From Jatrophihabitans sp. (lineage in GTDB: Bacteria; Actinomycetota; Actinomycetes; Mycobacteriales; Jatrophihabitantaceae): 64,000 nt of DNA. The number at the start of each line of letters is the position of its first letter. The stretch's first letter is position 1. The translations under genes were made by a program, and so were the position numbers. Positions 1,476 through 27,149 of the stretch are shown one piece after another. The DNA is taken from assembly GCA_036399055.1 (NCBI GenBank), contig DASWNX010000004.1:98504-162503 (forward strand). The letters are read 5' to 3'. The notes beneath the pieces were generated by a model. The model was not told the DNA's origin. It saw only the letters and a list, made by a program, of their open reading frames with translations, and searched no databases.

Positions 1476-2687
1476 TCAGCTGCGAGCGGAATCGGCGGCC
1501 ACAGAAGGGGTGAGCGCTGAGCGGACCTCGTCGATGATCTGGCGTAGCGGCCGGCCGGTGGACTCGGCCACCGCCTTCACGTCGTCGTACTCCGGTTGCA
1601 CCGTGACCACGGCGCCGTCCAGGTATCCCCGCTTCACCTGCACGATCCCGCCGTCGTGCTGGACGCTCACGCTGTCGCGGTGCAGCGATCGCCGCTGGAC
1701 CGGGTAGAGCCGCACGCCAAGGGTCGAGGTGTGCGCGAAGGTCGCCGCGCAGACGCCGTCCACCCGGTCCGGCGCGACCAGAACGGTCAGGAGCATGCCG
1801 GGCCGGCCCTTGTGCGCGGTGATCGGAGCGCACCAGGCATCGGCCCCGCCCGCCTTGCGCAAGGCAGCGAGAACGTCCGGCCATAGCCGTGGATCGAGGT
1901 CGTCGACGGTGGTCTCGAGAGTGACCAGGTCGGTGCTCACCCAGGTCGGCGTCGCCGACGAGGACTGCCCGATGACGACCCGCACGATGTTGGCGTGCCC
2001 CGGCGGGTCGGCCGTCCCGGCCCCGATGCCGACCGTGACCGGCGTGCAGGCAGGCATCGGGCCGTACCCGTCGGCCAGAGTGACCAGCAGGGCGGCGCCG
2101 GTCGGGGTGCACAGCTCGCGGGCCGCCGGGTGCGCGGCCACCGGGGCCCGGGCCGCACTCAGCAGGGCGAGCACCGCCGGCGGCGGGACGGTCAGCCGGC
2201 CGTGCTCGGCCGTCACCGTGCCGCCGCCAACTGCGATCGGGGACACCGTCACCGTCGCGTCCAGCAGTCCCAACAGGTCCAGGGCGATCGCGCAGCCGAC
2301 CACGTCGACGACGGCGTCCTGCGCCCCGACCTCGTGAAAGTGCACCTCCGCCGGGTCGACTCCGTGAACGTGGGCCTCGGCGTGGGCGAGCCGCTGGAAG
2401 ACCGCGACCGCGAAGCGCTCGACTGCCTCCGGTAGCGCGCCGGCGGTGATCTGCTCGACGATCTCGGGCAGGTGCCGGGCATGGCTGGTGGCCGGCGCCT
2501 GCACACTCATGTGTCGCGCCCGCAGCCCGTGCCGGCGCACCACGCTGTCCTGCAGGTGCACACCCTGCAACGGAATCCGTGACAGGCCGGCGCGAATGGC
2601 GCCCAGGTCCGCGCCGGCGTCGACCAGGGCCGCCAGCAGCATGTCCCCGGCGCATCCGTTGCCGGCGTCGATCCACGCGATGCTCAT
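1476..2687 (-). CDS. larC: LarC, nickel insertion protein / NPN cofactor cyclometallase
   Basis: LarC inserts nickel into pyridinium-3,5-bisthiocarboxylic acid mononucleotide in a CTP-dependent reaction, the last step of nickel-pincer nucleotide synthesis. The protein has 403 residues, the usual length for a fused LarC. It opens with the family signature WIDAGNGCAGDMLLAAL. Later it carries TTVDDLDPRLWPDVL and ADAWCAPITAHKGRPG, matching the conserved C-terminal region. The ATG at 2687 was chosen because it begins the conserved N-terminus and overlaps the larB stop as ATGA, so the two are translationally coupled. In Lactiplantibacillus, LarC is split by a frameshift; here it is one reading frame. 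LarE lies about 9 kb away on the same strand. Family assignment is firm; the client enzyme is unknown. Confidence 0.93.
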   Translation of the reverse strand: MSIAWIDAGNGCAGDMLLAALVDAGADLGAIRAGLSRIPLQGVHLQDSVVRRHGLRARHMSVQAPATSHARHLPEIVEQITAGALPEAVERFAVAVFQRLAHAEAHVHGVDPAEVHFHEVGAQDAVVDVVGCAIALDLLGLLDATVTVSPIAVGGGTVTAEHGRLTVPPPAVLALLSAARAPVAAHPAARELCTPTGAALLVTLADGYGPMPACTPVTVGIGAGTADPPGHANIVRVVIGQSSSATPTWVSTDLVTLETTVDDLDPRLWPDVLAALRKAGGADAWCAPITAHKGRPGMLLTVLVAPDRVDGVCAATFAHTSTLGVRLYPVQRRSLHRDSVSVQHDGGIVQVKRGYLDGAVVTVQPEYDDVKAVAESTGRPLRQIIDEVRSALTPSVAADSARS

Positions 2688-3409
2688 GAGCCTGCTGGGG
2701 CGGTGGCCAGAGCCCGGTGTGAGGCACGGGCGATGCGGGCGGCCGCGACCCCCGCGCCGAAGCCGTTGTCGAGGTTGACCGTGACCACGCCGGCGGCACA
2801 GGTGTTGAGCATCGCCAGCAGGGCGGTGAGCCCTTCCATGTGCCAGCCGTATCCGATGCTGGTCGGGACCGCGATCAGCGGGGCGCCGCAGAGCCCGCCC
2901 AGCACGGACGGCAGGGCCGCCTCCATGCCGGCAACGGCGACGATCGCATCGGCAGTGCTGATCCGCTCGATCTGAGACAGCAGCCGGTGGATTCCGGCGA
3001 CCCCCACGTCGACGATGAGGTCGGCCTCCGCGCCGAAGACGGTCACTGTGGTGGCGCACTCCTGGGCCACCGGCAGGTCCGACGTCCCGGCGCACACCAC
3101 GGCGACGCGTCCGCGGCCGGTGGGCGGTTCGCCCAAGACGACGGTCCGGGCCAGGTCATCGACGTGGGCCTGGGGCAGGTGGCGCCGGCAGTGCTCGCGG
3201 CCGGTGGCGTCTACGCGGGTGGCGAGGATGGCCCGATCGGGATGCGCCTCGTGCAGTCGGCTCATCGATGCCACGATCTGCTCCGGCGTTTTGCCTGCGC
3301 CGAACACCACTTCCGGGTCTCCGGTCCGGGTGGCCCGGTCCAGGTCGAGTCTGGCGAAGCCCAGGTCTGCGGTAGACGGTCCGACGCCGGTGATATCAGG
3401 TCTCGGCAT
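2684..3409 (-). CDS. larB: LarB, pyridinium-3,5-biscarboxylic acid mononucleotide synthase
   Basis: LarB carboxylates and hydrolyses nicotinic acid adenine dinucleotide to pyridinium-3,5-biscarboxylate mononucleotide, the first step of the nickel-pincer cofactor pathway. The C-terminal half is the AIR-carboxylase-like (PurE-type) domain, with VVCAGTSDLPVAQE, the glycine-rich VAGMEAALPSVLGG segment and VPTSIGYG. The N-terminal half has the LarB pattern (GFARLDLDR, EVVFGAGKTPEQI). At 241 residues it is of normal length. The ATG has an AAGG-type site 8-9 bases upstream. It is the first gene of a larBC pair and is transcribed away from the SARP regulator across a low-GC intergenic region that probably holds both promoters. 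Confidence 0.94.
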   Translation of the reverse strand: MPRPDITGVGPSTADLGFARLDLDRATRTGDPEVVFGAGKTPEQIVASMSRLHEAHPDRAILATRVDATGREHCRRHLPQAHVDDLARTVVLGEPPTGRGRVAVVCAGTSDLPVAQECATTVTVFGAEADLIVDVGVAGIHRLLSQIERISTADAIVAVAGMEAALPSVLGGLCGAPLIAVPTSIGYGWHMEGLTALLAMLNTCAAGVVTVNLDNGFGAGVAAARIARASHRALATAPAGS

Positions 3410-3667
3410 AACGCGACCTTAGTGTTGATACGGGGAGGTGTAAACCTAATTATCCTATTGTGCCGATATGGCGCAGATGTTAATAATTGCGGGGTTACAG
3501 CGGTAAGCTCCTATGGGAGCCTGCCGATTTAACGACGACGCATATTGGTCCAGGGCTCGCTCGCCGAGCCCGTTAACCGGCGACCTGCCACATCCGCGCT
3601 GTTCCAGCGCTCCGACTGAAGCTGCCGGTCGTTCCACCACGGGGTACGTGTCGAGTCAGGGGTGTAA
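3410..3667. promoter_or_regulatory. Divergent larB / SARP regulatory region
   Basis: This 258-base gap separates divergent larB and the SARP gene and is clearly more AT-rich than its surroundings (many TTAATAATT/TAAACCTAATTATCC-like stretches at 3420-3500). A hairpin with 7-base arms GGGCTCG/CGAGCCC lies at 3553-3571, and GCTCC-TATG-GGAGC at about 3508-3521. It must carry promoters for both directions, but I cannot place -10/-35 elements with certainty. Confidence 0.5.
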
Positions 3668-5518
3668 GTGTATTTCGAGCTGCTCGGAAATCTTCGGGCT
3701 CAACATGACGGCCCGGTGGACATCGGTGGGCTGCGGCAGCAGAAGCTACTGGTCGTGCTCCTGCTCGAGCCCGACCGCGTGGTCACCGCGGACCGGTTGA
3801 TCGAGGCGGTCTGGGACGACCGGCCACCGGCGACGGTCCGAAGGCAGCTGCACAACGCCGTCTCCGGACTGCGGCGCAGCTTCGGGTCAGCCAAGTCGAT
3901 GATCCTGAAGGACGGCCCGGGCTACCGCCTCGACGTCCCCCCGCAGGACGTCGACGCCCACCGGTTCGTCAGCCTCGTCGGCCAGGCCACGGCTGCGGCT
4001 GCCGAAAAGCAATCCGCCCAGGCCATCAACCTGCTTGAGCAGGGGCTGACGCTGTGGAAGGGCCCGGCGCTGTCCGGGCTCAACGGGTCAGTGCTCGACA
4101 TCATCGCTGCCAGCCTGGAGGAAAAGCGGCTGGGCGCGACCGAGCAACTGCTCGAACTGCGTCTGAGAAGCGGTGAACCGGGAGGGGTGCTGGTGCCGCA
4201 ACTGGGCGTGCTGGTCTCGCAGAACCCGCTGCGGGAGGAAACCCGGCGCCTGCTGATGCTTGCGCTGCTGGCCAGCGGCCGCAAGGCGGACGCGCTGACC
4301 GCCTACGAGCAGGGCCGTCGGCTGCTGCGGGCCGAGATGGGGGTCGAGCCGAGCCTGGAACTGCGCCGGCTGTACGAGCAGATCCTCCGGGACGATCCGG
4401 CGGCCCTGGCCGGACGTCGGGATGCCGCCGCCTCCGCGCCGGCGGCGAGGCCGCGACCGGTGGAAGTCGTGCACCCACCCAGCAAGCCCCTCAGCGGCCG
4501 TTCCTTCCTTCCGTACCACACAGCTCATTTCATCGGCCGGGCCGAAGAGTTGCGCTCGCTCGCCGTGCCCTGCCCGGCCGCGGAGACCGCGCTGCGCATC
4601 GTCGCTGTCGACGGAATGGCCGGTGCGGGCAAGACCACGCTGGCCCTGCGGCTGGCCCACCAGTTGGCGCCGAACTATCCCGGCGGCCAGCTCTTCATCG
4701 ATATGCAGGGTCACACCCCCGGCCAGGAGCCGCTGGAGCCGGAGGCCGCCCTGGAACGGCTGCTGTTGGACTTCGGGCTGCGGCCGGAGGAGATCCCGGT
4801 GGACGCGCGGCAGCGCTCGGCCCGTTGGCGGGCCGAGGTCGCCGAGCGGGGGGTTCTGGTGGTGCTGGACGACGTCCTGGATGTGCGGCAGATCCGTCCG
4901 TTGCTGCCCGGCACCGGAAAGGCCCAAGTGATCATCACCAGCAGGCGGCGGCTGGTCGGCCTGGACGGAGCGACGTTCTGCTCGCTGGACATGATGCCGG
5001 AGGCGGACGCGGTCGAGCTGTTCACCCGCATCGCCGGCGCCGGCCGGGTAGGTGGGCAGCCGAAGGCGGTCGCCGAGGTTGTCGCGCTCTGCGCGAAGCT
5101 TCCGCTGGCGGTCAGCATCGCCGCCTCCCGCTTCCACAGCCGTCCGGCATGGACGCTCACGGACTTGATCGCGCGGTTGCGTGACGATCGGACACGGCTG
5201 AGGGAGTTCTCTCTGGGAGAGCGCGACCTGAGCGCCCTCTTCGCCGCCTCCTACCGTCACCTGTCGCCGGAGCAGCGGCGCCTGCTGTGCGTCCTCGGCC
5301 TGGCCCATGTCCCCGGTGAGCAGTTCGACGCCGGCGCAGCCGCTGCCCTGGCGAACATCTCTGTGCCAGAAGCGGATCGGCTGCTGGAGGAATTGTTCGA
5401 CGTGCACCTGCTCCGGCAGAGCGCGGCCGGGCGGTACCACTTCCACGAGCTGCTGCGGCAGTACGCGCTTACCCAGGTGGCCACCGAACTCCAGCTGAGC
5501 GACGTCCGCTACGGGTAG
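3668..5518 (+). CDS. SARP-family regulator with NB-ARC ATPase domain
   Basis: Pathway-specific activator of the AfsR/SARP type. Residues about 1-90 form the OmpR-like winged helix (DRLIEAVWDDRPPATVRRQLHNAVSGLRR). Residues about 95-245 form the bacterial transcriptional activation domain (LNGSVLDIIAASLEEKRLGATEQLLELRL). An NB-ARC ATPase follows, with a P-loop GMAGAGKTT near residue 316 and a Walker-B-like VLVVLDDVL. At 616 residues it stops shortly after the NB-ARC helical domain and lacks the tetratricopeptide tail of full AfsR. The start is GTG, preceded by CAGGGG at about 5 bases. It sits at the left edge of BGC A between larBC and the ligase operon, which suggests it controls that cluster. 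Confidence 0.9.
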   Translation: MYFELLGNLRAQHDGPVDIGGLRQQKLLVVLLLEPDRVVTADRLIEAVWDDRPPATVRRQLHNAVSGLRRSFGSAKSMILKDGPGYRLDVPPQDVDAHRFVSLVGQATAAAAEKQSAQAINLLEQGLTLWKGPALSGLNGSVLDIIAASLEEKRLGATEQLLELRLRSGEPGGVLVPQLGVLVSQNPLREETRRLLMLALLASGRKADALTAYEQGRRLLRAEMGVEPSLELRRLYEQILRDDPAALAGRRDAAASAPAARPRPVEVVHPPSKPLSGRSFLPYHTAHFIGRAEELRSLAVPCPAAETALRIVAVDGMAGAGKTTLALRLAHQLAPNYPGGQLFIDMQGHTPGQEPLEPEAALERLLLDFGLRPEEIPVDARQRSARWRAEVAERGVLVVLDDVLDVRQIRPLLPGTGKAQVIITSRRRLVGLDGATFCSLDMMPEADAVELFTRIAGAGRVGGQPKAVAEVVALCAKLPLAVSIAASRFHSRPAWTLTDLIARLRDDRTRLREFSLGERDLSALFAASYRHLSPEQRRLLCVLGLAHVPGEQFDAGAAAALANISVPEADRLLEELFDVHLLRQSAAGRYHFHELLRQYALTQVATELQLSDVRYG

Positions 5519-5706
5519 TCACCCCGAGCGCCGGGGCGCAGCCGAACCGATGCTGTCCGGTGAGTGCCGATGTTCGACGGATGCCTGACAAAGGCAGTGC
5601 CGATGGCTCCGGTTGTGATGCTGGCGGTAGCCCATCGCCGGTCCGGGCGGCGGTGTCCACCTGACGCCGCCGCCCTGGCCGGCGCCGCAGGCCCGAGGAG
5701 ATCACT

Positions 5707-5775
5707 GTGGATCGCGCCGCCCCGGCCACGGCTCGTGCCCTGATCGACTCTGCGGCCCACATCAGAAAGCGATGA
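5707..5775 (+). CDS. Small ORF A (22 aa) directly upstream of the AMP-ligase
   Basis: A 22-codon frame starts with GTG behind GAGGAG at 6 bases and stops one base before the ATG of the adenylate-forming ligase. The product is basic and Ala/Arg-rich (starts MDRAAPAT, ends AHIRKR). The ligase ATG itself has only a weak Shine-Dalgarno sequence, so this frame may couple translation into the ligase. The GATCACTGTG start context closely resembles that of small ORF B. I recognise no family. It may be a leader peptide, a ligase substrate peptide, or chance. Confidence 0.35.
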   Translation: MDRAAPATARALIDSAAHIRKR

Positions 5776-5776
5776 C

Positions 5777-7447
5777 ATGATCCTGACGCACAACACCGTT
5801 CTCCCGCCGGATCTGCGCGCTCAGGTGGCTGCGGACCCCACCATCGGCGGAGGCAACCTGCTTCCCGCGCTGCTGGCGCTGAACCCTTTCCCGGACGAGC
5901 CGTTCATCAAGTCACTGGTCCCGATCCCATACATCGACGGCGAGACCCGCACCGAGTTCAGCCTGCGCGACCTCCACCATCTGGTGGAGAGCTGGTCGGC
6001 CTGGTACTGGGAGCAGGGAGTCCGCCCGAGGGACCGGATCGCCGTCTTCCTGCCTGACTCCATCGCCTATTTCGTGCACTATTCCGCGATCGCTCAGCTG
6101 GGCGCCATCGCCGTGCTCATCAACAGCAAGGCCCCGCGCGAGACGGCGGTCGCGCTGTGCGAGCGCACCGGCGCCATCGGCCTCTACACCGACGCCGAGC
6201 GGCTCGATCGGATCGCTCCCGACCTCGGGAAACTGACCCTGGGTTGGACGAGGACCATGGAGGAGGTGCCCGGCCCGGCCTCGGCCACCCTTGCGGAGGA
6301 GGCCCGTTTCCAGCACCACCCGGACGATCCGGTAGGCCTGATGCACTCCTCCGGCACCACCGGCCTGCCGAAGCCCATCATCCACACCCACCGCACCATC
6401 ATGGCCGGGCCGAAGTTCCGGGCCCTGGACTACAAGGAGGAACCGAACGCCCTGATCATGACGGCGCTGCCGCAGTCACATCAGGGCTGCATCTCCTTCA
6501 CCGCGTACGCCGTGCTCGCCGGCCAGCCGTTCCTGCCCTGGGGGGATGTGAACGGACAGAAGCTGGCCACGGCCATCGCCGAACACCAGCCGACGATGGT
6601 GATGGCCTTCGGTCACGCCTACGCCGAGATGGCCGCGCTGCCGCCGTCGCAGGACGCCCTGGACTCGGTGAACATCTGGGTGTCCATCGGTGACGCGGTG
6701 CACGAGCGGCACATCAAGAATGTGCTCAGGCGACGGTCCCCCGAACGCGAGCCCTCGACCTTCCTGGACCGGCTGGGCACCACCGAACTCGGCTGGGGCG
6801 TGCTGATGAAGCCGCGCACGCTGGAGACCGAGCGCAACGACCGCTGCGTCGGCCGCTCGGTCGGCTTCGCCGAAGTGGCGATCGTCCGCGAGAACGGGAC
6901 CCTCGCAGCGCCTTACGAGGTCGGGTACCTCGGCGCCCAGCCGCCGTCGCGGACCCCCGGCTACTGGGGCAACCCGGACACCACCTACCGCAGCATGCTG
7001 GCCGGTTACTGGTTGACCGGCGACATGGCCTACCGCGACGAGGAAGGCAACTTCTACCAGGTGGACCGGGCGACCGACGTCGTGCACACGGTCGAGGGAC
7101 CGCTCTACTCCGTGCAAACCGAGGAACTCGTGCTGAACGAGGTTCCCGAAGTCGAGGAATGCACTGTCGTGGCCGGGGTCATCGGCCTGGAGAACGTCGC
7201 CATCGCGGTGGTGATCGGAGGCGTCGACCCCGAGAAGGTCCTGGTGTCGGCCAATGCGGCGCTGCGCTCGCTGGGCCGTCCGGCCTTGGCGATGGTGGAG
7301 GTGGTAGCCGGCGAGGACGGCGATTACCCGCTCGGCCTGACCGGAAAGTCCCTCAAGCGCTTCCTGCGGCAGAAGTACGCCGACCTGCCCACGTACCTGA
7401 GCAACCGCGCCGGCAAGAACCTCGCCACGAGCGACTCGGTCACCTGA
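5777..7447 (+). CDS. Adenylate-forming acid-CoA ligase-like enzyme
   Basis: Member of the ANL superfamily, which activates carboxylic acids as acyl-adenylates and passes them to CoA or a carrier. The P-loop-like motif HSSGTTGLPKP lies near residue 192, and LTGDMAYRDEEGNFYQVDR (the A8 region with its Asp) near residue 415. The C-terminal lysine region reads YPLGLTGKSLKRFLRQKY, so the catalytic Lys is present. At 556 residues it is the normal length of a stand-alone ligase with no carrier domain. It heads the plus-strand operon of BGC A. A substrate cannot be read from the sequence; anthranilate or another amino-shikimate made by the cluster's TrpEG pair is a reasonable guess but is inference. 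Confidence 0.88.
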   Translation: MILTHNTVLPPDLRAQVAADPTIGGGNLLPALLALNPFPDEPFIKSLVPIPYIDGETRTEFSLRDLHHLVESWSAWYWEQGVRPRDRIAVFLPDSIAYFVHYSAIAQLGAIAVLINSKAPRETAVALCERTGAIGLYTDAERLDRIAPDLGKLTLGWTRTMEEVPGPASATLAEEARFQHHPDDPVGLMHSSGTTGLPKPIIHTHRTIMAGPKFRALDYKEEPNALIMTALPQSHQGCISFTAYAVLAGQPFLPWGDVNGQKLATAIAEHQPTMVMAFGHAYAEMAALPPSQDALDSVNIWVSIGDAVHERHIKNVLRRRSPEREPSTFLDRLGTTELGWGVLMKPRTLETERNDRCVGRSVGFAEVAIVRENGTLAAPYEVGYLGAQPPSRTPGYWGNPDTTYRSMLAGYWLTGDMAYRDEEGNFYQVDRATDVVHTVEGPLYSVQTEELVLNEVPEVEECTVVAGVIGLENVAIAVVIGGVDPEKVLVSANAALRSLGRPALAMVEVVAGEDGDYPLGLTGKSLKRFLRQKYADLPTYLSNRAGKNLATSDSVT

Positions 7448-7506
7448 TCGAGGTGCGCCCCGGAGCCGGTCCGGGCCGCGTCTCCTTCTTTTCCAGAGAG
7501 GTCACT

Positions 7507-7590
7507 GTGCCCCACAACCACGTCCAGCTGCTGCCGGTCGCTGATCCGGAGGCCGTCCAGCCTGCCGTTCCGGCGGGTGCGCGACCGTGA
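7507..7590 (+). CDS. Small ORF B (27 aa) between AMP-ligase and aminotransferase
   Basis: A 27-codon GTG-started frame behind AGAGAGG at about 5 bases lies in the 306-base gap between two operon genes. The product begins MPHNHVQLLPVAD and is rich in Pro, Val and Ala. Its start context (GGTCACTGTG) nearly repeats that of small ORF A 1.8 kb upstream. The frame ends 163 bases before the aminotransferase start, so simple coupling does not explain it. No family is recognised. The rest of the gap holds a GATATACC stretch near 7675 that could be a weak internal -10 element. Confidence 0.3.
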   Translation: MPHNHVQLLPVADPEAVQPAVPAGARP

Positions 7591-7753
7591 TCGGGGGAGC
7601 CGTCGCCGGACGGGGGTGCGCCGTCGGGCTGCGATCGGGAGGAGTCGGACCTGTCCGATCTGATCGATCCGGCAAGATATACCCCAATCAGCGCGGGGCT
7701 GGTCGATCGGCCCGGGGCCGCCTCGACCTCGACCTCGTCCACAAGGAGTCCGC

Positions 7754-8863
7754 ATGACCGTCACCGGGTTGGAGTTCACCTGGCAGCCCGCGCAGCCGGT
7801 CTCGCCCGAACGACGTTCTGAACTGCTGGCACAACCGAGGTTCGGCACCACGTACTGCGATCACATGGTGACCATTCAATGGCAGCCTGATCGCGGTTGG
7901 CACGACGCCCTGGTCCGGCCGCTGGAATCGTTCTCGTTGCACCCGGCGACCATGGCCTTCCACTACGGTCAGACGATTTTCGAGGGTCTGAGGGCGTTCT
8001 GGCGACCGGACGGGCAGCGGGCCCTGTTCCGTCCGGACGATCACGCGGCCCGGTTCAACCGCTCGGCCACTCGGATGGCGATGCCGACCCTGCCGGAGGT
8101 GGACTTCGTGGCGGCGCTGCGAGCGCTGCTGCGGGTCGACCAGGCCTGGGTTCCGTCCACCCGCGGGCACAGCCTCTACCTGCGGCCGTTCATGATCGCC
8201 TCGGAGACTCACCTGAGTAACCGGTCGGCAGAGCAGTTCCTGTTCACGGTGCTCGGCACCCCGTCGTTCTCCTCCGGTCCCAAGCCGCTTCGGCTGCTGG
8301 CCTCCACCGAGTACGTGCGCGCCGCTCCCGGCGGCACCGGGGAGATCAAGTGCGGAGGCAATTACGGCGGCGCCTACATCGCCCAGCGGCAGGCGCTCGC
8401 GCGCGGCTGTGACCAGGTGGTCTGGTTGGACGCGCACGAACGCCGCCACATCGAGGAGTCCGGCGGGATGAACCTGTTCTTCGTGGAGCGGACCGACGCC
8501 GGACCCCGCATCATCACCTCTCCGCTGACCGGCACGCTGCTGGCCGGCGTCACCCGCGACTCCGTCCTGCGATTGGCCGAGCGTGCCGGGTATCAGGTGA
8601 GCGAAGAACGGGTGGCCCTTGACGAGTGGGAACAGGGATGCCGGGACGGACGCTTCATCGAGGCTTTCGCGACCGGGACCGCCGCCGTCGTCCAGCCCGT
8701 GGTTGAGGTGCTTTCCGACAGTCGTGAGTGGACGGTGGGGGACGGCCGTCCCGGTCCGGTGATGGCCCAGCTCCGACAGGAATTGACCGACATCCAATAC
8801 GGCCAGGCGCCAGACACCTTCGGCTGGATGCAGACCGTGGACACCGAAACGAGGACCACATGA
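7754..8863 (+). CDS. Branched-chain-type aminotransferase (PLP fold class IV)
   Basis: Resembles IlvE-type branched-chain amino acid aminotransferases, which swap amino groups between amino acids and 2-oxo acids using PLP. Family signatures are AFHYGQTIFEGLRAF near residue 73, SLYLRPFMIASE near 139, and GEIKCGGNYGGAY near 197, whose Lys forms the internal aldimine. The later ESGGMNLFF and LTGTLLAGVTRDS also match. At 369 residues it is full length. AAGGAG sits 6-7 bases before the ATG. Its stop overlaps the next gene's start (ATGA). Placed inside BGC A, it probably makes or consumes a building-block amino acid rather than serving general branched-chain metabolism. Confidence 0.9.
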   Translation: MTVTGLEFTWQPAQPVSPERRSELLAQPRFGTTYCDHMVTIQWQPDRGWHDALVRPLESFSLHPATMAFHYGQTIFEGLRAFWRPDGQRALFRPDDHAARFNRSATRMAMPTLPEVDFVAALRALLRVDQAWVPSTRGHSLYLRPFMIASETHLSNRSAEQFLFTVLGTPSFSSGPKPLRLLASTEYVRAAPGGTGEIKCGGNYGGAYIAQRQALARGCDQVVWLDAHERRHIEESGGMNLFFVERTDAGPRIITSPLTGTLLAGVTRDSVLRLAERAGYQVSEERVALDEWEQGCRDGRFIEAFATGTAAVVQPVVEVLSDSREWTVGDGRPGPVMAQLRQELTDIQYGQAPDTFGWMQTVDTETRTT

Positions 8864-9708
8864 GTCGCCTCGGCCCGCAGGACCGGGCGAAGCTGCTGCT
8901 CCAGCTGCATTCCAGCGGGGTGCTGGTGATGCCGAACGCGTGGGACGTGGCCAGCGCCGCCGTGTTCGCACAGGCCGGCGCCCGTGCCGTGGCCACCACC
9001 AGCGCGGGCCTGGCCTGGAGCCTGGGCTACCGCGACGGCGAGCAGGTGCCCCGGGCTGACTTGTTCCGGCTGCTGCGCCGCATCGCCGAGGTGGTCGACG
9101 TGCCCGTCAGCGCGGACATCGAGGCAGGCTTCGGTGCGGATGAGTCCCAGGTGGGCCAGACCGTCACCGCGGTCCTGGAGGCCGGGGTCGTCGGGATCAA
9201 CATCGAGGACGCCCCTCCGGGTGGAAGCGGGTTGTTCGATCTGCCGGTCGCCGCCGGTCGGGTCGCCGCCGCCCGGGATGCCGCGGTCGCCGCCGGCGTC
9301 CCCGACCTGGTGATCAACGCCCGGACCGACGTGTACATGCGCGGGATCGGCGACCCGGCCGAGCGCCCGGCCGAAGTGCTGCGCCGGGCCCACGCCTTCG
9401 CCGCTGCCGGCGCCGACTGCGTGTTCGTCCCGGCCCTGTCGGACCTGCAGGTCCTGTCTGACCTGGTGAGGCGTTCCCCGCTGCCGATCAGCGTGGTCAC
9501 CACCGCCGGTGGCGCCAGCGTCGCGCAACTGCAGGCCGCCGGAGTCCGCCGGATCACCGTGGGCCCGGCTCTGGCCCGGGCCGCCTACACCACGGCCAGT
9601 GAGTTGGCCCACGAGTTGCTCGACTCCGGCACCCTGACCGCCTCCTCGCCCTGGCTCGGCTACGACTCGCTGAACGCCCTCCTTCCCACCGTCCCGACCA
9701 AGGAGTAG
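8860..9708 (+). CDS. PEP mutase / isocitrate lyase superfamily enzyme
   Basis: A (beta/alpha)8-barrel enzyme of the isocitrate lyase/phosphoenolpyruvate mutase family (COG2513 type), which makes or breaks C-C or C-P bonds next to a carboxylate. Typical stretches are VLVMPNAWDVASAAVFAQAG, VSADIEAGFG (metal-binding Asp/Glu), VGINIEDAP and LVINARTDVY. The EDK-x5-NS motif of true PEP mutase is absent, so phosphonate formation is unlikely. A lyase or hydrolase on a 2-oxo or malate-like acid fits better. It has 282 residues. The ATG at 8860 overlaps the aminotransferase stop and gives a conserved N-terminus. With the aminotransferase it could supply an oxo-acid/amino-acid pair (inference). Confidence 0.85.
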   Translation: MSRLGPQDRAKLLLQLHSSGVLVMPNAWDVASAAVFAQAGARAVATTSAGLAWSLGYRDGEQVPRADLFRLLRRIAEVVDVPVSADIEAGFGADESQVGQTVTAVLEAGVVGINIEDAPPGGSGLFDLPVAAGRVAAARDAAVAAGVPDLVINARTDVYMRGIGDPAERPAEVLRRAHAFAAAGADCVFVPALSDLQVLSDLVRRSPLPISVVTTAGGASVAQLQAAGVRRITVGPALARAAYTTASELAHELLDSGTLTASSPWLGYDSLNALLPTVPTKE

Positions 9709-9714
9709 ATCACC

Positions 9715-10335
9715 ATGTCTCTGTCTGCGTCCGCCATTCCGAAGGTGGACTTCTACTTCGACCCCGCCTGTCCTTTCGCCTGGATCACCTCCCGGTGGAT
9801 GCTCGAGGTCGAGCAGAAGCGTGACATCGACCTGAGCTTCCAGGTGATGAGCCTGTCAGTCCTCAACGAGCACCGCGAGATCGAGGACTGGTATCGCGCC
9901 TTCTGCGACCGGGCCTGGGGGCCGGTGCGGGTCTGTGTCGCGGCGGCCAAGGATCACGGCGACGGTGTGCTGCGTGAGCTGTACACGGCGCTGGGGACCC
10001 GGATCCACAACGGTGGCAACAAGGATTACACCGAAGTCATCCCCCAGGCGCTGGCCGAGGTCGGGCTGCCGGCCGAGCTGGCCGCGGCGGCCGGCAGCAC
10101 CGACTACGACGAGGAACTGCGGGCCAGCCACCGCCGGGCCCTCGACCCGGTCGGTGAGGACCTCGGCACACCGGCCATCCACATCGACGGGATCGGGTTC
10201 TTCGGTCCGGTGCTGAACGCGATCCCGCGCGGCGATGAGGCGGTCGAGGTCTTCGACGCTGCCCTGGCCCTGGCGCGCAACCCCCACTTCTTCGAGATCA
10301 AGCGTGCCCGTTCCGGTGGCTTGAACTACGACTGA
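9715..10335 (+). CDS. Rv2466c-like DsbA-family protein lacking the resolving cysteine
   Basis: Thioredoxin-fold DsbA-family protein that matches, from memory of the family, the mycobacterial mycothiol-dependent nitroreductase Rv2466c along its whole length. Shared stretches include [47 protein letters not shown] and [12 protein letters not shown]. The active site here is C19-P-F-A22 instead of CPWC: the nucleophilic Cys remains but the resolving Cys is Ala. Such a monothiol protein could still work as a thiol transferase or isomerase (2-hydroxychromene-2-carboxylate isomerases share the fold) but not as a dithiol reductase. It has 206 residues and an AAGGAG just ahead of the ATG. It is operonic with its neighbours in BGC A. 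Confidence 0.85.
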
Positions 10336-10353
10336 CCGAAAGGAGTCTCACTC

Positions 10354-11601
10354 ATGAGACGGATCGGATTCGTCGAGTCCAACCTCTCCGGCTCCGGCTT
10401 CGACGCGTTGCGGGCCGCGCGCAAGCTGGGCCTGCACGTCGTCTTCTTCAACTGCGGTCTGGACCGGTACCACGCGGCGGCCGGTGGCACCGAGGTCCTG
10501 CGGACCTGCGTGGACGAGTTCGTGTCCTGTCAGACGCATGAACTGGCCCCGCTGATGGAGGCAGTCAAGGAGGTCGACGCGCAGGCGCCGTTGAGCGCGC
10601 TGCTGTCGGTCGCGGAGTACGAAGTCGTGCCGGCCGCGCAGGCCGCTCGCCAGCTCGGCCTGCCCGGCCCGGACCCGGACGGGATCAGCATCGCCCGCAA
10701 CAAGGTCGACCAGCGGCGCCGCTGCCGGGAGCGGGGGGTGCCCGGGCCGGCCTTCCAGGTCGTGACCACGCTCGCGGAGGCGTCCGCGGCGGCCGAGGAG
10801 ATCGGCCTGCCCTGCGTGGTCAAGGCCGCGGATGAGACCAGCGGGGTTCACGTGGTGCGCTGCACCACGGTGGACGAGGTGAGCATGGCCTTCTCCGCCA
10901 TCGTGGCCCGGCCCACCAACCGGCGCGGGCAGGCCACGCGTCCGGAGGTCCTGGTGGAGGAGTGCCTGGTCGGGTTCGAGGTCAGCGTCGAGGTACTGGC
11001 CCAGGGCGGCTCGCACAGCGTCCTGGGGGTGACCGACAAGACTGTCAGCGCAGGCAACCGATTCGTCGAGCTCGGCCACACCTTTCCCTCCGTCCTGCCC
11101 GAGGGGGTGCGGGAGGACCTCGCCGGCGCCGCCGTGGCCGCGGCCCGGGCCGTGGACTTCGACCTGGGGATCGCCCACGTCGAGCTGAAGTACACCGCCG
11201 ACGGTCCGAAGCTGGTCGAGATCAACCCGCGCCCGGCCGGTGGGCGGATCACCGAGTTGATGGACCGCAGCCTCGGTGTGGCGAGCATGGAACTCGTGGT
11301 CCGCCAATACCTCGGCGAGTCCGTCGGCCCGGTCACCGGGCCCGTCTCCGGAGCGGCGATCCGGTACCTGAGCGCAGATCCCGGCGTCGTGGACAGTGTG
11401 AGCGGTCTGGATATCGCCCGGGCGGTTCCGGGCGTGCAGGAAGCCGTGGTCTACCTCGCCCCGGGAATGAGCGTGCGGCCGTTGCGGGTGAACGAGGACC
11501 GGATCGGCCACGTCCTGGCCACCGCCGATGACCCCTACCTGGCACAGCGTCTGGCCGAGACCGCGGCCGCCCAGATCGTGGTGACCACCGGCCGAGCATG
11601 A
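10354..11601 (+). CDS. ATP-grasp ligase 1 (amide-bond-forming)
   Basis: Carboxylate-amine/thiol ligase of the ATP-grasp superfamily. An N-terminal Rossmann-like domain (residues about 1-100) is followed by the ATP-binding fold. Its signatures are NKVDQRRRCRERGVP (start of the grasp domain), LPCVVKAADETSG (ATP-binding Lys), EVLVEECLVGFEVSVEVL, VELKYTADGPKLVEINPRPAGGR (metal-binding Glu/Asn) and a C-terminal DUF-type extension. It has 415 residues. AAGGAG lies 9 bases before the ATG. Last gene of the plus-strand operon of BGC A, it converges with larE. Such enzymes typically join amino acids in dipeptide-like products. The substrate is not predictable here. Confidence 0.9.
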   Translation: MRRIGFVESNLSGSGFDALRAARKLGLHVVFFNCGLDRYHAAAGGTEVLRTCVDEFVSCQTHELAPLMEAVKEVDAQAPLSALLSVAEYEVVPAAQAARQLGLPGPDPDGISIARNKVDQRRRCRERGVPGPAFQVVTTLAEASAAAEEIGLPCVVKAADETSGVHVVRCTTVDEVSMAFSAIVARPTNRRGQATRPEVLVEECLVGFEVSVEVLAQGGSHSVLGVTDKTVSAGNRFVELGHTFPSVLPEGVREDLAGAAVAAARAVDFDLGIAHVELKYTADGPKLVEINPRPAGGRITELMDRSLGVASMELVVRQYLGESVGPVTGPVSGAAIRYLSADPGVVDSVSGLDIARAVPGVQEAVVYLAPGMSVRPLRVNEDRIGHVLATADDPYLAQRLAETAAAQIVVTTGRA

Positions 11602-11644
11602 CCGATGCACGCTCGATGGCCCGCGCGCCAGGCCTGCTGGTGAT

Positions 11645-11670
11645 CCGGCGCCTTGGTGATCCGGCGCCGG
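11645..11670. terminator. Perfect hairpin between convergent ATP-grasp and larE genes
   Basis: CCGGCGCC pairs with GGCGCCGG (8 bp) across a 10-base loop, exactly in the 69-base gap between the two convergent operons of BGC A. The same region contains a 14-base direct repeat (GGTGATCCGGCGCC at 11639 and 11655). It probably ends both transcripts; no T tract is seen. Confidence 0.45.
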
Positions 11671-12510
11671 TCAGGGTCCGGACGTGGCCGGCGCCCGGTA
11701 GGTCGACAGCTGCCCCGGACCGGTCCGGATCAGCTCCTGCAGACGGACCAGCACCTGATCGACCAGGGCCGGCCGGGTCATGAGCGCATCGTGCGCAGCC
11801 TGGTCCAGTTCTACCCGGAAACCCTGACCCAGTAACCGGACTCGCAGGTCGCGGGGGGTGAGACCGGCTCCGGTCAGCTGTTCGCGCAGCGCCGCCTCGG
11901 CCCGCTCGACCAGGTTCAGCCGGGTCAGCGAGACCGGTACCCCGACGGCGATCCGTGAGGCCAGACAGGGCATGGCTGGTTTGTCGGCCACCCGCAGGGA
12001 CCAGGACCTGGCCAGCAGGCGGATCTCCTGCTTTCCCAGGCCGGCCTCGGCCAGCGGCTCGATCACCTTCAGCTCCTGGGCTGCCCGCAGCCCCGGCCGG
12101 TGTGCGGCCCGGTGGTCGTCGGCGTGGGTGCCGGTGGCCACGTGGTGGATGCCCTGGCGGGCGGCCACAGCGGACACGGCGGTCAGGACGGTGTGCTTGC
12201 AGAAGTAGCAGCGGTCTCCGGCGTTGCTGCGGTAGCCGGGCACGTCCAGCTCGTCAGTGCCGATCTCGATCAGCTCGACGCCCAGCTCCCCGGCCACCTC
12301 GCGGGCGAGCGCCAGCTCGGTGCGGGCGAGGCTGGGGGAGTCGGCGATCGCGGCCCGGACCCGGTCGGCAGGCAGCGCCCGCAGGGCCGCGGCAAGCACC
12401 AGGGCGGAGTCGACCCCGCCGGAGAAGGCCACGACGACGCCGTCGAGCATCCGCATCCGGGCAAGCAGCCGCTCTGACAGCTCGCCGGGATCCTGCGCCA
12501 CCTCGGTCAC
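11671..12510 (-). CDS. larE: LarE, ATP-dependent sacrificial sulfur transferase
   Basis: LarE adenylates the carboxylates of pyridinium-3,5-biscarboxylate mononucleotide and donates sulfur from its own cysteine, giving the bisthiocarboxylate that LarC metallates. The PP-loop AFSGGVDSALVLAAAL is at residues about 28-43. The family CYFCK pair is at C101/C104. The sulfur-donor position is C182 in KPAMPCLASRI. Its 279 residues match the family. It is the last gene of the minus-strand operon, behind TrpG. It thus lies inside BGC A, while larB and larC sit about 9 kb away beyond the SARP gene. LarE-like PP-loop proteins can also act in other thiolations, but the presence of LarB and LarC makes NPN synthesis the best reading. 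Confidence 0.92.
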   Translation of the reverse strand: MTEVAQDPGELSERLLARMRMLDGVVVAFSGGVDSALVLAAALRALPADRVRAAIADSPSLARTELALAREVAGELGVELIEIGTDELDVPGYRSNAGDRCYFCKHTVLTAVSAVAARQGIHHVATGTHADDHRAAHRPGLRAAQELKVIEPLAEAGLGKQEIRLLARSWSLRVADKPAMPCLASRIAVGVPVSLTRLNLVERAEAALREQLTGAGLTPRDLRVRLLGQGFRVELDQAAHDALMTRPALVDQVLVRLQELIRTGPGQLSTYRAPATSGP

Positions 12511-12589: not shown

Positions 12590-13192
12590 TCACGCGGTCA
12601 CGATCCCTTCTGCCCGGACCCGGCTCTGCAGGCAGCGCAGCGCGTTGCCGACCATCTGCATGCCGTGCTCGGTGAACAACGATTCGGGGTGGAACTGGAC
12701 GCCCTCGATTGGCAGGGTGCGGTGCCGCAGGCCCATGATCTCGCCGGTGTCGGTCCAGGCGGTCGCGACCAGCTCGGCCGGCAAGGCTTCGGCCTCGACC
12801 ACCAGCGAGTGGTACCGCGCCACCGTTATCAGCTGCGGCACCCCGTCGAAGACGCCCTCTCCGTCATGGGTGATCGTCGAGCACTTGCCGTGCATCGGCT
12901 CGGCCCCGTGCCGGATTCGGCCCCCGAACGCCGCGGCGATCGCCTGGTGGCCCAGGCAGACTCCGAAAACCGGTATCCGCGGACCTAGTTGTCGCACCAC
13001 CTCGACCGAGATGCCCGCGTCGAACGGGTCACCCGGCCCCGGCGAGATGATGATCAGGTCGGGCGCGAGGTCGGCGACCTGCTGCACCGTCACCTCGTCG
13101 TTGCGGTGCACGACGCGCTCGGCGCCCAGTTCCCCCGTGTATTGCACGAGGTTGTAGACGAACGAGTCGTAGTTGTCGATCACGCAGATCAT
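12590..13192 (-). CDS. Anthranilate synthase component II-type glutamine amidotransferase
   Basis: Class I glutamine amidotransferase that supplies ammonia to a chorismate-using partner. It starts MICVIDNYDSFVYNLVQY, has ISPGPGDP, the nucleophile elbow GVCLGHQAIA and the catalytic His-Glu in VQFHPESLFTEHG. It has 200 residues. The ATG at 13192 gives the standard N-terminus and overlaps the stop of the component I gene (ATGA), which indicates an obligate pair. Its place between the component I gene and larE in a biosynthetic operon argues for a dedicated secondary-metabolite role rather than the cell's tryptophan or folate supply. Confidence 0.92.
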   Translation of the reverse strand: MICVIDNYDSFVYNLVQYTGELGAERVVHRNDEVTVQQVADLAPDLIIISPGPGDPFDAGISVEVVRQLGPRIPVFGVCLGHQAIAAAFGGRIRHGAEPMHGKCSTITHDGEGVFDGVPQLITVARYHSLVVEAEALPAELVATAWTDTGEIMGLRHRTLPIEGVQFHPESLFTEHGMQMVGNALRCLQSRVRAEGIVTA

Positions 13193-14547
13193 GCGGCTGC
13201 TTCTTCTGCTACGGACACGCCGATGACGCGCGCGGCGGAGCCGAGTTTGGCCAGGCATTCGGCGTACTCGTCGGAGGGCTGTGAGTCATGGACGATTCCG
13301 CCGCCGGCCTGCAGGCGGATCAGCCCGTTCCACAGGACGAGGCTGCGGATCGTCAGGAAGAGGTCCACGTGGGCCAGGCCGAAGGAGCCGACGGCGCCGG
13401 AGTACAGCCAGCGGCGGTTCGGCTCGAGATCGTCGATGATCTCCATCGCCCGGACCTTGGGAGTGCCGGTCATGGTGCCTGCCGGGAACGTCGCCCGGAT
13501 CAACTCGTCGGTCCGGCTGCCCGCGAGGATGCGGCCGCGCACATCCGAGGTCAGGTGCATGACGTGGGAGTAACGCTCCACCTCCATCAGCCGGTCCACC
13601 CGCACACTTCCCGGCCGGCAGACCCGCCCCAGGTCGTTGCGGGCCAGGTCGACCAGCATGCGGTGCTCGGCCAGTTCCTTGACCGAGGAACGCAATTCAG
13701 CCTCGATCAACCGGTCGCTCGGCCGGTCTAGGCCGCGTGGGCGGGTCCCGGCCAACGGGCGGATCAGGGCCGTCCCGCCGCCCAGGGTCAGGCACGGCTC
13801 CGGTGAGGCGCCGACAACCTCGAACTGCGGACCGGCGTACCAGAAGTGATACGGGGACGGGTTGATCGACGTCAGCCGGTCGTAGATGGTCAGCGCGTCC
13901 GTGGTGGCCGGCGCGGTCCAGCTGAGCGACAGCACGAGCTGGAAGACGTCACCGTCAAGAATGTGCTGCTGCGCCTGGCAGACGGCGTCGGCGTACTCCT
14001 CGTAACTGAGATTGAACCGGCCCGCGCCGATGCTGACCTCGCCCAGCGCTGTCACGCTGAGCCGGTCGAGGATCCGCACCACCTGCCCGGCCGCGGCGCG
14101 TGCCGCCGCCGGTGAGGACCCCCGGCCGATCACCTGAGCGTGCCCGTCCTCGAAGCGCACCAGCACCTCGGGCAGGAAGAACTCATACACCGGCAGCGGT
14201 TCGGCGGGGTGCCGGCTGGGCAGCCGCTCCATGTCGCGCACTGCGTCGTAGCCGAGAACGCCGTACCAGGCCGCTTCCCAGTCGGGACTGTCCGGTTGCA
14301 GCTCCAGCCCGGCGAGGAAGTCCACGGCGTCGGCCAGCGGCGCCGAGCCGGCGCCACCCGGATGCGACAGCACGGCCAGCTCGCCCACGGCAAGGGTGAC
14401 CGGTCCCCGGCCGCCGGTCCCGGAACTGAGCATGACCCGACCGGCCGGGCGCAGCGCGGCGGCCGCGGCCACCGGCTGCACCGGCTGCAGCGGCAGGACA
14501 TGCCGGTACAGCCGCGAACCGGGACGCAGGGTCGAGGAGATCGTCAA
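13189..14547 (-). CDS. Anthranilate synthase component I-type chorismate-utilising enzyme
   Basis: Chorismate-binding enzyme (452 aa) that adds ammonia at C2 of chorismate. The active-site strand reads RPLAGTRPRG: A266 occupies the position that is Lys in aminodeoxychorismate synthase PabB (PIKGT), so C2 amination of the TrpE or aminodeoxyisochorismate-synthase type is favoured. Other signatures are ELAEHRMLVDLARNDLGRV and PAGTMTGTPKVRAMEIID (residues 355-372), where TrpE usually has SGAPK. It cannot be decided whether pyruvate is eliminated (anthranilate) or retained (aminodeoxyisochorismate). It is coupled to its amidotransferase by a 4-base overlap and follows the DUF362 gene by 4 bases. 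The LTSINP stretch replaces part of the usual Trp-feedback region, which hints at an unregulated paralogue. Confidence 0.9.
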   Translation of the reverse strand: MTISSTLRPGSRLYRHVLPLQPVQPVAAAAALRPAGRVMLSSGTGGRGPVTLAVGELAVLSHPGGAGSAPLADAVDFLAGLELQPDSPDWEAAWYGVLGYDAVRDMERLPSRHPAEPLPVYEFFLPEVLVRFEDGHAQVIGRGSSPAAARAAAGQVVRILDRLSVTALGEVSIGAGRFNLSYEEYADAVCQAQQHILDGDVFQLVLSLSWTAPATTDALTIYDRLTSINPSPYHFWYAGPQFEVVGASPEPCLTLGGGTALIRPLAGTRPRGLDRPSDRLIEAELRSSVKELAEHRMLVDLARNDLGRVCRPGSVRVDRLMEVERYSHVMHLTSDVRGRILAGSRTDELIRATFPAGTMTGTPKVRAMEIIDDLEPNRRWLYSGAVGSFGLAHVDLFLTIRSLVLWNGLIRLQAGGGIVHDSQPSDEYAECLAKLGSAARVIGVSVAEEAAA

Positions 14548-14551
14548 TGGG

Positions 14552-15748
14552 TCACGCCCTGCCCCCCACCAGGCTCGGCGCCCGGAACTGGGTCCGTTCG
14601 TGCGCGCTCACGGTCTGACCCATCGCGTACCTGAAGGCGGCCTTCTGGATCGCCCGCGGCGGGCAACCCTCGATGTAGATGCCGAGTTCTCGATTCTCGT
14701 ACAGGCAGTTGCCGACCAGGACGACAGCGCCACGCAACGTCGGCGTCTCGATCTGCGGTCCGCACAGGATCGTCATCTCCCCGTCCCAGGCCAGCATCTC
14801 CTCGGCCAGCGCGTGCAGCGCCCCGGCCAGGAACCGGCTGCAGGCCCGGCAGGCGTGCTCGGCGTACACGTGGATCCCCACCCTGGGCGAGCGGATCTGG
14901 ACCGGGGCCTTGACCATGTCGAAAGCCAGCTCTTGCGGGGCCGTTCCCAGCATCTCGATGTCGGCCAGATCGATCGGTCCCATCCCGCGGGCATGCGCGT
15001 CGCGCAGGTAGGCCACCTCCCGGGGGTCGAATCCGGCCAGGTCGCCGACCGCGACGTCGAGGGCGACCGCGTTGCGGCTCGCGGCCAGGAAACCCACCGC
15101 GCGCGCCTGCCCGTCCATCGGGTAGTTGCCCTCGATCACGGTCGTCCCGTCGCAGATCACCAGGTCCTGCGGTCGCATCAGGTTGAGGTCGACCGTCGAC
15201 TCGTCGACGCCGGCCATGTGCACGATCCGGGTGGTGTACCCGGGCAGCAGCCCGACCAGATTCTTCATCGCGTTGGAGTAGATGACGCTGGCATGCGTGC
15301 GCAACTGGGGCACCCCGATGAAGTAGTCGCAGTCGAGGATGAGCTCCGGCACCGCGATCGGCACCCGCAGCGAGGTCGCCTCCGCAATGCTGGTGATCCG
15401 CAGCGGCAGGTCGTCGAAGCTCACCACCCGGGCGTACCGGGCGGCCTCGTGCTCGCCCAGCAGCTCGTAGATCGCGTGGGTGCGCTCGGCGATCACCGGG
15501 CGCCCGCCATGCTCGGCCACTGTCCTGGCGATGGCGGCCAGCAGGGTGGTGTTGACGTGGAAGCCAGGCCGGGTCTGGAACAGGTTGGGTTTGATCAGGA
15601 CCGTGTCACCGGCTCGCAGCTGGGCCAGCGGCGAGCCGATCAGTTCCAGGAGCTGTCGCAGGGCATCGGGGATCGCGCTGTCCTCAGGCGCGGGGGCCAG
15701 CGCGACCTGATGCCGCGGGCCGGCCGCCGCGGACGGGTCAGGCTCCAC
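14552..15748 (-). CDS. DUF362 domain protein with cysteine-rich C-terminus
   Basis: Member of the uncharacterised DUF362 family. VLIKPNLFQ at residues 50-58 is the family hallmark. FIGVPQLRTHASVIYSNAMKNLVGLLPG corresponds to the conserved KtH...KN segment, with R150, H152 and K162. The C-terminal part carries C300-x2-C303, C329, C348 and C362 (ending EGCPPRAI), a pattern that could bind a metal or Fe-S cluster. It has 398 residues. It overlaps the upstream cyclase gene by 11 bases and precedes component I. In a cluster with LarB, LarC and LarE but no LarA, it is the most attractive candidate for a nickel-pincer client. That is inference only, and a role as an Fe-S oxidoreductase is equally open. 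Confidence 0.82.
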   Translation of the reverse strand: MEPDPSAAAGPRHQVALAPAPEDSAIPDALRQLLELIGSPLAQLRAGDTVLIKPNLFQTRPGFHVNTTLLAAIARTVAEHGGRPVIAERTHAIYELLGEHEAARYARVVSFDDLPLRITSIAEATSLRVPIAVPELILDCDYFIGVPQLRTHASVIYSNAMKNLVGLLPGYTTRIVHMAGVDESTVDLNLMRPQDLVICDGTTVIEGNYPMDGQARAVGFLAASRNAVALDVAVGDLAGFDPREVAYLRDAHARGMGPIDLADIEMLGTAPQELAFDMVKAPVQIRSPRVGIHVYAEHACRACSRFLAGALHALAEEMLAWDGEMTILCGPQIETPTLRGAVVLVGNCLYENRELGIYIEGCPPRAIQKAAFRYAMGQTVSAHERTQFRAPSLVGGRA

Positions 15749-16415: not shown

Positions 16416-16464
16416 GGTCCTTGTCCTTCGGTGAGATCTCTCTCGACAGACGCAAGCGTGTGTG

Positions 16465-16518
16465 TCAGCAGCTCGCAGACTCGGTCAAGGCGTCGGCGAG
16501 CGCCGCGATGGCAGGCAT
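16465..16518 (-). CDS. Small ORF D (17 aa) in the minus-strand operon
   Basis: A 17-codon frame, MPAIAALADALTESASC, starts at an ATG preceded by GAGGTGGGGGG and lies in the 255-base gap between the ATP-grasp/GSS-like gene and the cyclase gene, on the operon strand. Fourteen of its sense codons end in G or C. It ends in Ser-Ala-Ser-Cys. It may be a leader peptide or a chance frame; the remainder of the gap shows no other gene. Confidence 0.22.
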   Translation of the reverse strand: MPAIAALADALTESASC

Positions 16519-16670
16519 GCGCCCCCCACCTCACATCGCCGACCATGGTGGTCGGCGACGTCTGCCGCGAAGCATGTGCCGGTCGGCCATCAAGGGGGTA
16601 TTCGCGCTACATCGCGGGACCGGAAGGGTCGATGTACCCGGCGATCTCCTTCGCCAGTGGCCTGATCCGG

Positions 16671-18014: not shown

Positions 18015-18052
18015 GATGATCGGCTCCTTCGCCGGGTCGGGCTCTGCCTCGA

Positions 18053-26831: not shown

Positions 26832-27149
26832 GGACAGGCGGGGCTTGCCTGTTGGCGCCACCGCGATCGGCAGGATGTGAGCTTGCTCAAACGCTCACCC
26901 CTCATTGGCCGATGGGTGATCACCTGTCCGCCAACCCCGGCACACGGCCGCGTCGCCGGCGGCTGATGCGGCCCACTCACCACGCGGGCGACGCTCTTCG
27001 GACGCTCTTCATCGTCTCTTGAGGCCCCGCGACCGCTCAGGCCGAGCCAAGAGCGGATGAGGCCTCGACCAAGTGCGGCGGGCACTTCACTGTGCGTGCC
27101 TGACAAACGACGGGCCTGCGCCGAACAATCGACCACACAGGAGCCAGGG
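26832..27149. other. Gap between SARP and decarboxylase genes
   Basis: A 318-base stretch without a supported gene. It may contain decayed C-terminal coding sequence of the upstream SARP gene. A short direct repeat GACGCTCTTC occurs twice at 26991-27010. The promoter of the decarboxylase operon should lie here. Confidence 0.4.

Follow-up and report, generated by a model that had tools for sequence, protein, structure and literature searches.

Lactate racemase (LarA) holds its nickel-pincer nucleotide (NPN) cofactor on a lysine; a histidine fills the remaining position at the nickel, and the acid/base residues are His108 and His174 (PMC12611868). The LarA family (DUF2088) shares Pfam clan CL0471 with the DUF362 family, which has been used as an outgroup (PMC11770544). 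On the side of cofactor supply, LarE from T. maritima, which carries a CxxC...C motif, is a [4Fe-4S]-dependent, multiple-turnover enzyme whose cysteine is not sacrificed (PMC9283937). Here we describe larB, larC, and larE (larBCE) together with a gene for a DUF362 protein in a biosynthetic gene cluster of Jatrophihabitans sp., located on a stretch of 64,000 nucleotides (assembly GCA_036399055.1, contig DASWNX010000004.1, positions 98,504 to 162,503; "the window" below). With a probability of about two in three, judged from sequence comparisons, larBCE would make NPN for this cluster, and the DUF362 protein would be an NPN enzyme in a chorismate-derived pathway.

NPN genes of the window and their linkage to a DUF362 gene

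The four genes lie as follows (window positions, with bit scores and model cutoffs).

1476..2687, minus strand: larC (nickel insertion), 403 amino acids; TIGR00299, 183.6 bits (cutoff 90); NF052512, 120.9 (50); PF01969
2684..3409, minus strand: larB (carboxylase/hydrolase of nicotinate adenine dinucleotide), 241 amino acids; NF033503, 260.1 bits (cutoff 175)
11671..12510, minus strand: larE (sulfur insertase, CxxC-C type), 279 amino acids; TIGR00268, 245.5 bits (cutoff 150); Cys101, Cys104, Cys182
14552..15748, minus strand: DUF362 protein, candidate NPN enzyme (Lys162, His152, His177, His91); PF04015, 107.9 bits (cutoff 24)

The original prediction, made from the sequence of the window, described larB and larC as coupled and larE as the last gene of a minus-strand operon. 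This is borne out by the coordinates, in which larC overlaps the end of larB and larE is the final gene of the minus-strand run, and by the scores of all three proteins, which exceed the NCBIfam equivalog cutoffs. The NPN genes of the window are real and complete. The accompanying statement that their key motifs are intact holds only in part. AGTSDLP (from residue 107 of LarB), HKGRPG (from residue 292 of LarC), and Cys182 of LarE are all present; however, HKGRPG does not match the canonical LarC motif, MKKGRPAH, which is found in 22 of 34 LarC rows, and because of this departure the window LarC is divergent at this site rather than intact. HKGRPG or PKGRPG is confined to the seven rows of LarC clade a (see below), where it occurs in 7/7: the window, a genome designated G661, and five Amycolatopsis genomes. 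As for Cys182 of LarE, it is the third member of a CxxC...C set (Cys101, Cys104, and Cys182) that is present in 20 of 20 LarE rows, and the window LarE is thus of the three-cysteine type found in T. maritima, unlike the sacrificial L. plantarum type.

The claimed absence of LarA was confirmed, as a search for Lar_N (PF09861) in the window's own genome (assembly 99.46% complete) gave no match. The DUF362 protein, which had been mentioned merely as a neighbor, is a member of the LarA clan and a natural candidate client of the NPN genes. It is encoded in the larE operon, is the sole DUF362 of its genome, and matches PF04015 only, without Lar_N, in Pfam scans; the same scans found no LarA-clan match among the other cluster proteins.

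This DUF362 clade occurs in 3 of 397 genomes of the order, the window's own included. Scanning 84,980 species genomes with a sequence pattern returned 12 loci, 10 of which belong to the clade (Geodermatophilus chilensis, Mycolicibacterium pyrenivorans, Mycobacterium sp. OAS707, Pseudonocardia asaccharolytica, and six Amycolatopsis genomes). Together with the window genome and G661, these ten form a set of 12 genomes, in which larE is linked to the DUF362 gene in 11 and larB and larC are linked as well in 10 (with a fragmentary larC in P. asaccharolytica), while in G. chilensis larBC lies on a separate short contig. LarC is present somewhere in the genome in 12/12 carriers. The original prediction would have been contradicted by a larA elsewhere that keeps its own link to larBCE while cluster homologs lack these genes, and on this point the outcome favors the prediction: Lar_N is absent from 9 of the 12 carriers, and in the remaining three it stands beside its own separate larBC, apart from the cluster, with two of the three additionally holding the cluster lar set. 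In the window's genus, neither LarC nor this DUF362 was found in any of eight other genomes (two of them only ~90-91% complete and one 63%), which suggests that the two arrived together. Two further sets were noted among the carriers: P. asaccharolytica, in which the cluster larC is fragmented (L101) and Lar_N gave no match, holds a second larC-larB-larE set on another contig (L102), and contig C77 of Amycolatopsis sp. MtRt-6 (L091, L092) shows the apparently degraded remnants of an additional set of larC, trpE, and trpG.

A second type of cluster is found on a plasmid of Streptomyces sp. NBC_01450 (L145), whose DUF362 protein is 58% identical to that of the window. Its neighbors are larC, larB, larE, an isochorismate synthase (TIGR00543, 303.9 bits; cutoff 224.75), a 3-deoxy-D-arabino-heptulosonate 7-phosphate (DAHP) synthase, and a PF04199 hydrolase overlapping the DUF362 gene, giving a cluster of seven genes (13065-21170). 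In this cluster, LarC carries the canonical motif, and the CxxC-C cysteines are present in LarE. A search of 41 kb of L145 with the window proteins, CreE, CreD, and DAHP synthase found neither a diazotase-like ligase nor CreE, CreD, or an ATP-grasp protein. Judged by gene content, the core common to both cluster types is larBCE, a chorismate-using enzyme, a cyclase, and DUF362. An amidotransferase-coupled enzyme in the window stands where the plasmid has isochorismate synthase, and this swap would suggest that the substrate derives from isochorismate or from its amino analogue.

We placed the lar genes in maximum-likelihood trees of 20 to 34 rows (quick search; support from the Shimodaira-Hasegawa-like approximate likelihood ratio test), leaving fragment L101 and duplicate L100 out of the LarC trees and the partial L144 out of one tree. 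All 11 LarE proteins of the main cluster group together in a single clade (support 100). LarC and LarB of the window, G661, and five Amycolatopsis genomes form clade a (support 100), with LarC on a long branch. Clade b comprises those of M. pyrenivorans and Mycobacterium sp., joined in the case of LarB by P. asaccharolytica, and groups with the larBC genes of LarA operons. Proteins of the Streptomyces plasmid fall outside both clades, so that linked larB/larC occupy three places in the trees; the Streptomyces LarC is placed beside clade b plus those LarA operons (support 94) and may share a deeper common source with clade b. That the linkage is kept while the larBC lineage changes speaks for a need of the cluster for the whole NPN pathway.

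The DUF362 protein and its relation to LarA

A profile alignment of 41 DUF362 against 24 LarA sequences with hhalign gave a score of 44.0 (P = 8.2e-5, probability 60.8, 149 columns), and 300 controls with block-shuffled LarA reached a mean of 18.4 and a maximum of 29.0, with 0/300 attaining 44.0. One DUF362 protein, L043, had first been left out on account of a frame that mismatched the motif pattern, and was later restored for the residue counts; with its row included, the score was 42.3 (P = 1.4e-4), the shuffled controls belonging to the 41-row set. We regard the DUF362-LarA profile match as modest.

In this alignment, His91, His152, and Lys162 of the window protein fall on His108, His174, and Lys184 of LarA (numbers counted out on PDB entry 5huq). 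We take Lys184 to be the cofactor lysine of LarA and His200 its nickel ligand. By alignment, the cofactor would then be anchored at Lys162, with His177 as the fourth ligand of nickel; His152, together with His91 in the main clade, would act in acid/base catalysis. Lys162 and His177 are present in 11/11 main-clade and 31/31 other aligned DUF362 proteins, and His152 is present in 11/11 and 30/31; these 31 are mostly best matches of the window protein and hence not a random sample. His91 separates the two sets, being found in 11/11 main-clade proteins and 0/30 others (L043 has a gap here). G661 agrees with the main clade at these residues. Beyond them, Cys300, Cys303, Cys348, and Cys362 in the C-terminal part are present in 11/11 main-clade proteins, yet we are unsure of an iron-sulfur role because Cys348 is replaced by alanine in the Streptomyces protein.

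The window protein forms a clade of its own, its next relatives being at most 37% identical, or 58% in the case of the Streptomyces plasmid protein. One relative at 37% over nearly its full length, from a Bacillota metagenome-assembled genome (L069, 9983-11122), has a very similar His-Lys-His segment and adjoins sugar-dehydrogenase-like genes; its genome contains LarC and three Lar_N matches, and the 21-kb stretch examined there has no lar match.

To place this in a wider setting, DUF362 was sought in a phylum sample of 396 genomes with the window protein, that is, with one diverged query, at E values up to 1e-10. LarC was present in 84 of 90 genomes with DUF362 versus 164 of 306 without and, among genomes lacking Lar_N at E < 1e-8, in 35 of 38 versus 59 of 189 (all counts uncorrected for kinship). 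Outside the window's clade, a by-eye comparison, not a systematic count, showed no close DUF362-larC pair among the matches listed. LarA matches better than 1e-8 were absent from 94 of the 248 LarC-positive genomes. Among 17 LarC loci of the order with flanks (L128-L144), LarA stood beside three and larE was called beside four; no true DUF362 was near them, two apparent matches in L136 having been rejected as ferredoxin matches, and the loci yielded no other NPN client. A prephenate-dehydratase-type gene lies near 11 and a seryl-tRNA-synthetase-type gene near 4 of the 17, each named from one example. It is tempting to speculate that all DUF362 proteins form a second superfamily of NPN enzymes, the client of many larBCE sets without LarA, which here, together with a dedicated cofactor supply, was enlisted for a chorismate-derived product; we consider this broader view possible, yet on balance doubtful.

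Cluster gene content and predicted pathway

The remaining genes of the cluster are the following.

3668..5518, plus strand: SARP-family regulator with NB-ARC domain; PF03704, PF00931; adjacency to lar genes conserved in G661 and five Amycolatopsis genomes
5777..7447, plus strand: AMP-forming ligase, diazotase-like; best NCBIfam model NF058622 (AvaA6 diazotase), 348.1 bits, below cutoff 975; next best 143.5
7754..8863, plus strand: class IV aminotransferase (branched-chain type); NF009897, 415.5 bits (cutoff 307)
8860..9708, plus strand: phosphoenolpyruvate (PEP) mutase/isocitrate lyase superfamily protein; PF13714; over no NCBIfam cutoff; in only some related clusters
9715..10335, plus strand: Rv2466c-like mycothiol-dependent reductase; PF22234
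10354..11601, plus strand: ATP-grasp ligase 1; PF18603, PF13535
12590..13192, minus strand: TrpG-like glutamine amidotransferase; PF00117; TIGR00566, 222.1 bits (cutoff 121.05); start set from homologs
13189..14547, minus strand: TrpE-like chorismate-binding enzyme; PF00425; best TIGR00564, 341.9 bits, below cutoff 517.7
15738..16415, minus strand: PF04199 "cyclase"/arylformamidase-like hydrolase; PF04199, 99.4 bits; TIGR03035, 50.9, below cutoff; overlaps the DUF362 gene
16671..18014, minus strand: possible circularly permuted ATP-grasp protein; PF04174, E = 0.0012, 18.3 bits, below cutoff 23.1; start set from homologs
18053..19315, minus strand: MFS exporter; PF07690
19312..20613, minus strand: ATP-grasp ligase 2; PF18603, PF13535

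The minus-strand run thus reads ATP-grasp ligase 2, exporter, possible permuted ATP-grasp protein, PF04199 hydrolase, DUF362, TrpE, TrpG, and larE. The plus-strand run comprises the diazotase-like AMP ligase, the aminotransferase, the PEP-mutase-like protein, the Rv2466c-like reductase, and ATP-grasp ligase 1, and larBC adjoins the SARP regulator. A further biosynthetic gene group lies at 24429-29931 of the window. It encodes an AfsR/SARP regulator (24429-26831), a protein resembling 2,4-diaminobutyrate decarboxylase (27057-28664), and a third protein that weakly matches a hydroxylase family (28654-29931); each scores below its NCBIfam cutoff.

The aspartate-nitrosuccinate pathway supplies diazotases with nitrous acid through CreE and CreD (PMC10777205). 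Both are encoded in 10 of 11 related clusters and DAHP synthase in 9 of 11, all between the ligase and the aminotransferase; the stretch examined in P. asaccharolytica ends short of the DAHP synthase position. Two CreD proteins of related clusters are nearest to nitrosuccinate lyase (NCBIfam, 494 and 531 bits; cutoff 650), and CreE has no NCBIfam match, the name, taken from the cremeomycin pathway, being our assumption from place and size. An N-N bond in the product appears likely because CreE and CreD supply diazotases and because the ligase is nearest to AvaA6, if below the cutoff. Elsewhere in the window's own genome (L127, contig C18:37001-52000), a CreE/CreD pair is encoded that is 51% and 53% identical to the Mycobacterium sp. 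OAS707 proteins; the same locus holds an AMP ligase and TrpE/TrpG-like genes and represents a second possible N-N-bond cluster.

From the data computed here, namely, the genes, their conserved linkage, the lack of LarA, and the DUF362-LarA profile similarity, we predict NPN binding, a substrate, an order of steps, and a type of product. LarB, LarE, and LarC would provide NPN for the cluster, and the DUF362 protein encoded in the larE operon, which is distantly related to LarA, would use it. TrpE and TrpG would form an amino-isochorismate-type compound, the substrate most likely deriving from chorismate. The overlapping PF04199 hydrolase would act together with DUF362 on the chorismate-derived compound, perhaps removing the enolpyruvyl side chain, and DUF362 would move a hydride at a carbinol carbon, in either an isomerization or an oxidation. 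Nitrite from the aspartate-nitrosuccinate pathway would feed the diazotase-like ligase, which would form an N-N bond, and the ATP-grasp ligases would add amino acids.

Alternative explanations and comparison with known systems

Several observations weigh against an NPN-using DUF362 protein in this pathway. The same His-Lys-His residues are kept in DUF362 proteins of two genomes (96% and 90% complete) that have neither LarC nor a strong LarA match, and five more DUF362 proteins with the three residues come from LarC-negative genomes that are less complete or have LarA; because LarC-less genomes keep them, these residues are, as a sequence signature, no proof of NPN. In the alignment with L043 restored, His177 is one column off His200 of LarA; an alignment of fewer LarA rows (P = 0.006) brings the two into the same column, at the cost of a gap. 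L043 itself has asparagine at His152, with Lys162 and His177 retained, and the Streptomyces plasmid protein has arginine at His91, with His152, Lys162, and His177 retained. Direct hidden Markov model searches of LarA versus DUF362, in both directions, gave nothing up to E = 10, and none of the three closest DUF362 proteins had a match up to E = 5 when PDB was searched by sequence. Amycolatopsis sp. CA-128772 has the DUF362 gene and only the right half of the cluster, with no lar gene in the 21-kb stretch examined, and its sole larC adjoins LarA. The phylum-wide DUF362-LarC association, being uncorrected for kinship, is not proof. With regard to the chemistry, the TrpE type and the diazotase-like ligase are both under their equivalog cutoffs, and CreE, CreD, and DAHP synthase are not in the window's cluster (with no CreE or CreD in the 64-kb window).

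The retention of the residues in LarC-less genomes would fit a cluster that needs NPN for another of its proteins, with DUF362 holding an iron-sulfur or other cofactor, and the four C-terminal cysteines of the main-clade proteins would suit a metal cluster. However, no other cluster protein has a LarA-clan match in the Pfam scans and Cys348 is not kept in Streptomyces, and we consider this alternative unlikely. The original prediction also offered the diversion of the thiopyridinium intermediate into the product. Nicotinate-derived building blocks do occur in natural products, and DUF362 could act as a carrier if this intermediate or NPN itself were built into the product, or were the product. 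Yet larC is kept in 12/12 carrier genomes (the one fragmentary cluster copy being accompanied by another in the genome) and in the Streptomyces cluster, and the common core holds chorismate enzymes, for which such a product has no obvious need; diversion was rejected on these grounds, and incorporation of either molecule seems improbable.

An accidental placement of the lar genes, or a role for them with some unrelated NPN enzyme outside the cluster, could draw on the frequency of larBC without LarA in the order (LarA at 3/17 LarC loci) and in the phylum sample (94/248). The occurrence of larBCE without larA was reportedly noted in the 2014 LarA paper. Against this stand the linkage, kept in 10 of the 12 cluster genomes and in two gene arrangements, with a third on the Streptomyces plasmid, the presence of LarC in 0/8 other genomes of the window's genus, and the two genomes that hold a second lar set beside LarA; chance neighborhood was rejected on these grounds, and we judge such an explanation quite improbable. 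A changed function of clade-a LarC, inserting another metal or serving a modified cofactor so that the window would not make NPN, might be read from the long branch and from the replacement of MKKGRPAH by HKGRPG or PKGRPG in 7/7 rows; however, clade b and the Streptomyces cluster keep the canonical motif in the same setting, and the window LarC passes both LarC domain models, which makes such a change very improbable. The use of NPN by the DUF362 protein is our preferred reading, and the proposal that a natural-product pathway uses an NPN enzyme unlike LarA in sequence is well supported by the 12-genome linkage and the Streptomyces cluster type.

Known NPN enzymes come from the LarA superfamily; the tie between larBCE and this DUF362 clade provides a concrete candidate for a new kind, with the compact seven-gene Streptomyces cluster as an expression target. 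Among the papers listed by a literature search that covered few subscription papers, there was no link of NPN genes with a natural-product cluster, nor any DUF362-NPN link beyond the outgroup use in PMC11770544; as far as the literature searched reaches, this would be the first case of an NPN cofactor in natural-product biosynthesis.

Among described pathways, the cremeomycin/avenalumic-type clusters resemble the present ones in the diazotase-like ligase and, for 10 of 11 related clusters, in CreE/CreD, whereas the window cluster lacks CreE/CreD and has additional lar genes, DUF362, cyclase, and ATP-grasp ligases. The penzonemycin (pzm) cluster is similar in its chorismate-derived core, 3-hydroxyanthranilate, and has a CreM homolog (PMC11705231); a word search of that review showed neither LarA nor DUF362, and "nickel" in a reference title only. 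The window resembles the LarA superfamily (DUF2088, PF09861) in its full larBCE set, in a clan member encoded in the larE operon, and in the alignment of His152 and Lys162 with His174 and Lys184, but the window's clan member is DUF362 rather than DUF2088, its genome has no Lar_N, and the setting is a biosynthetic cluster. Within the DUF362 family (PF04015), to which the window protein belongs by the Pfam cutoff, it is set apart from the other members by its own clade, its linkage to lar genes, and the His91 of the main clade.

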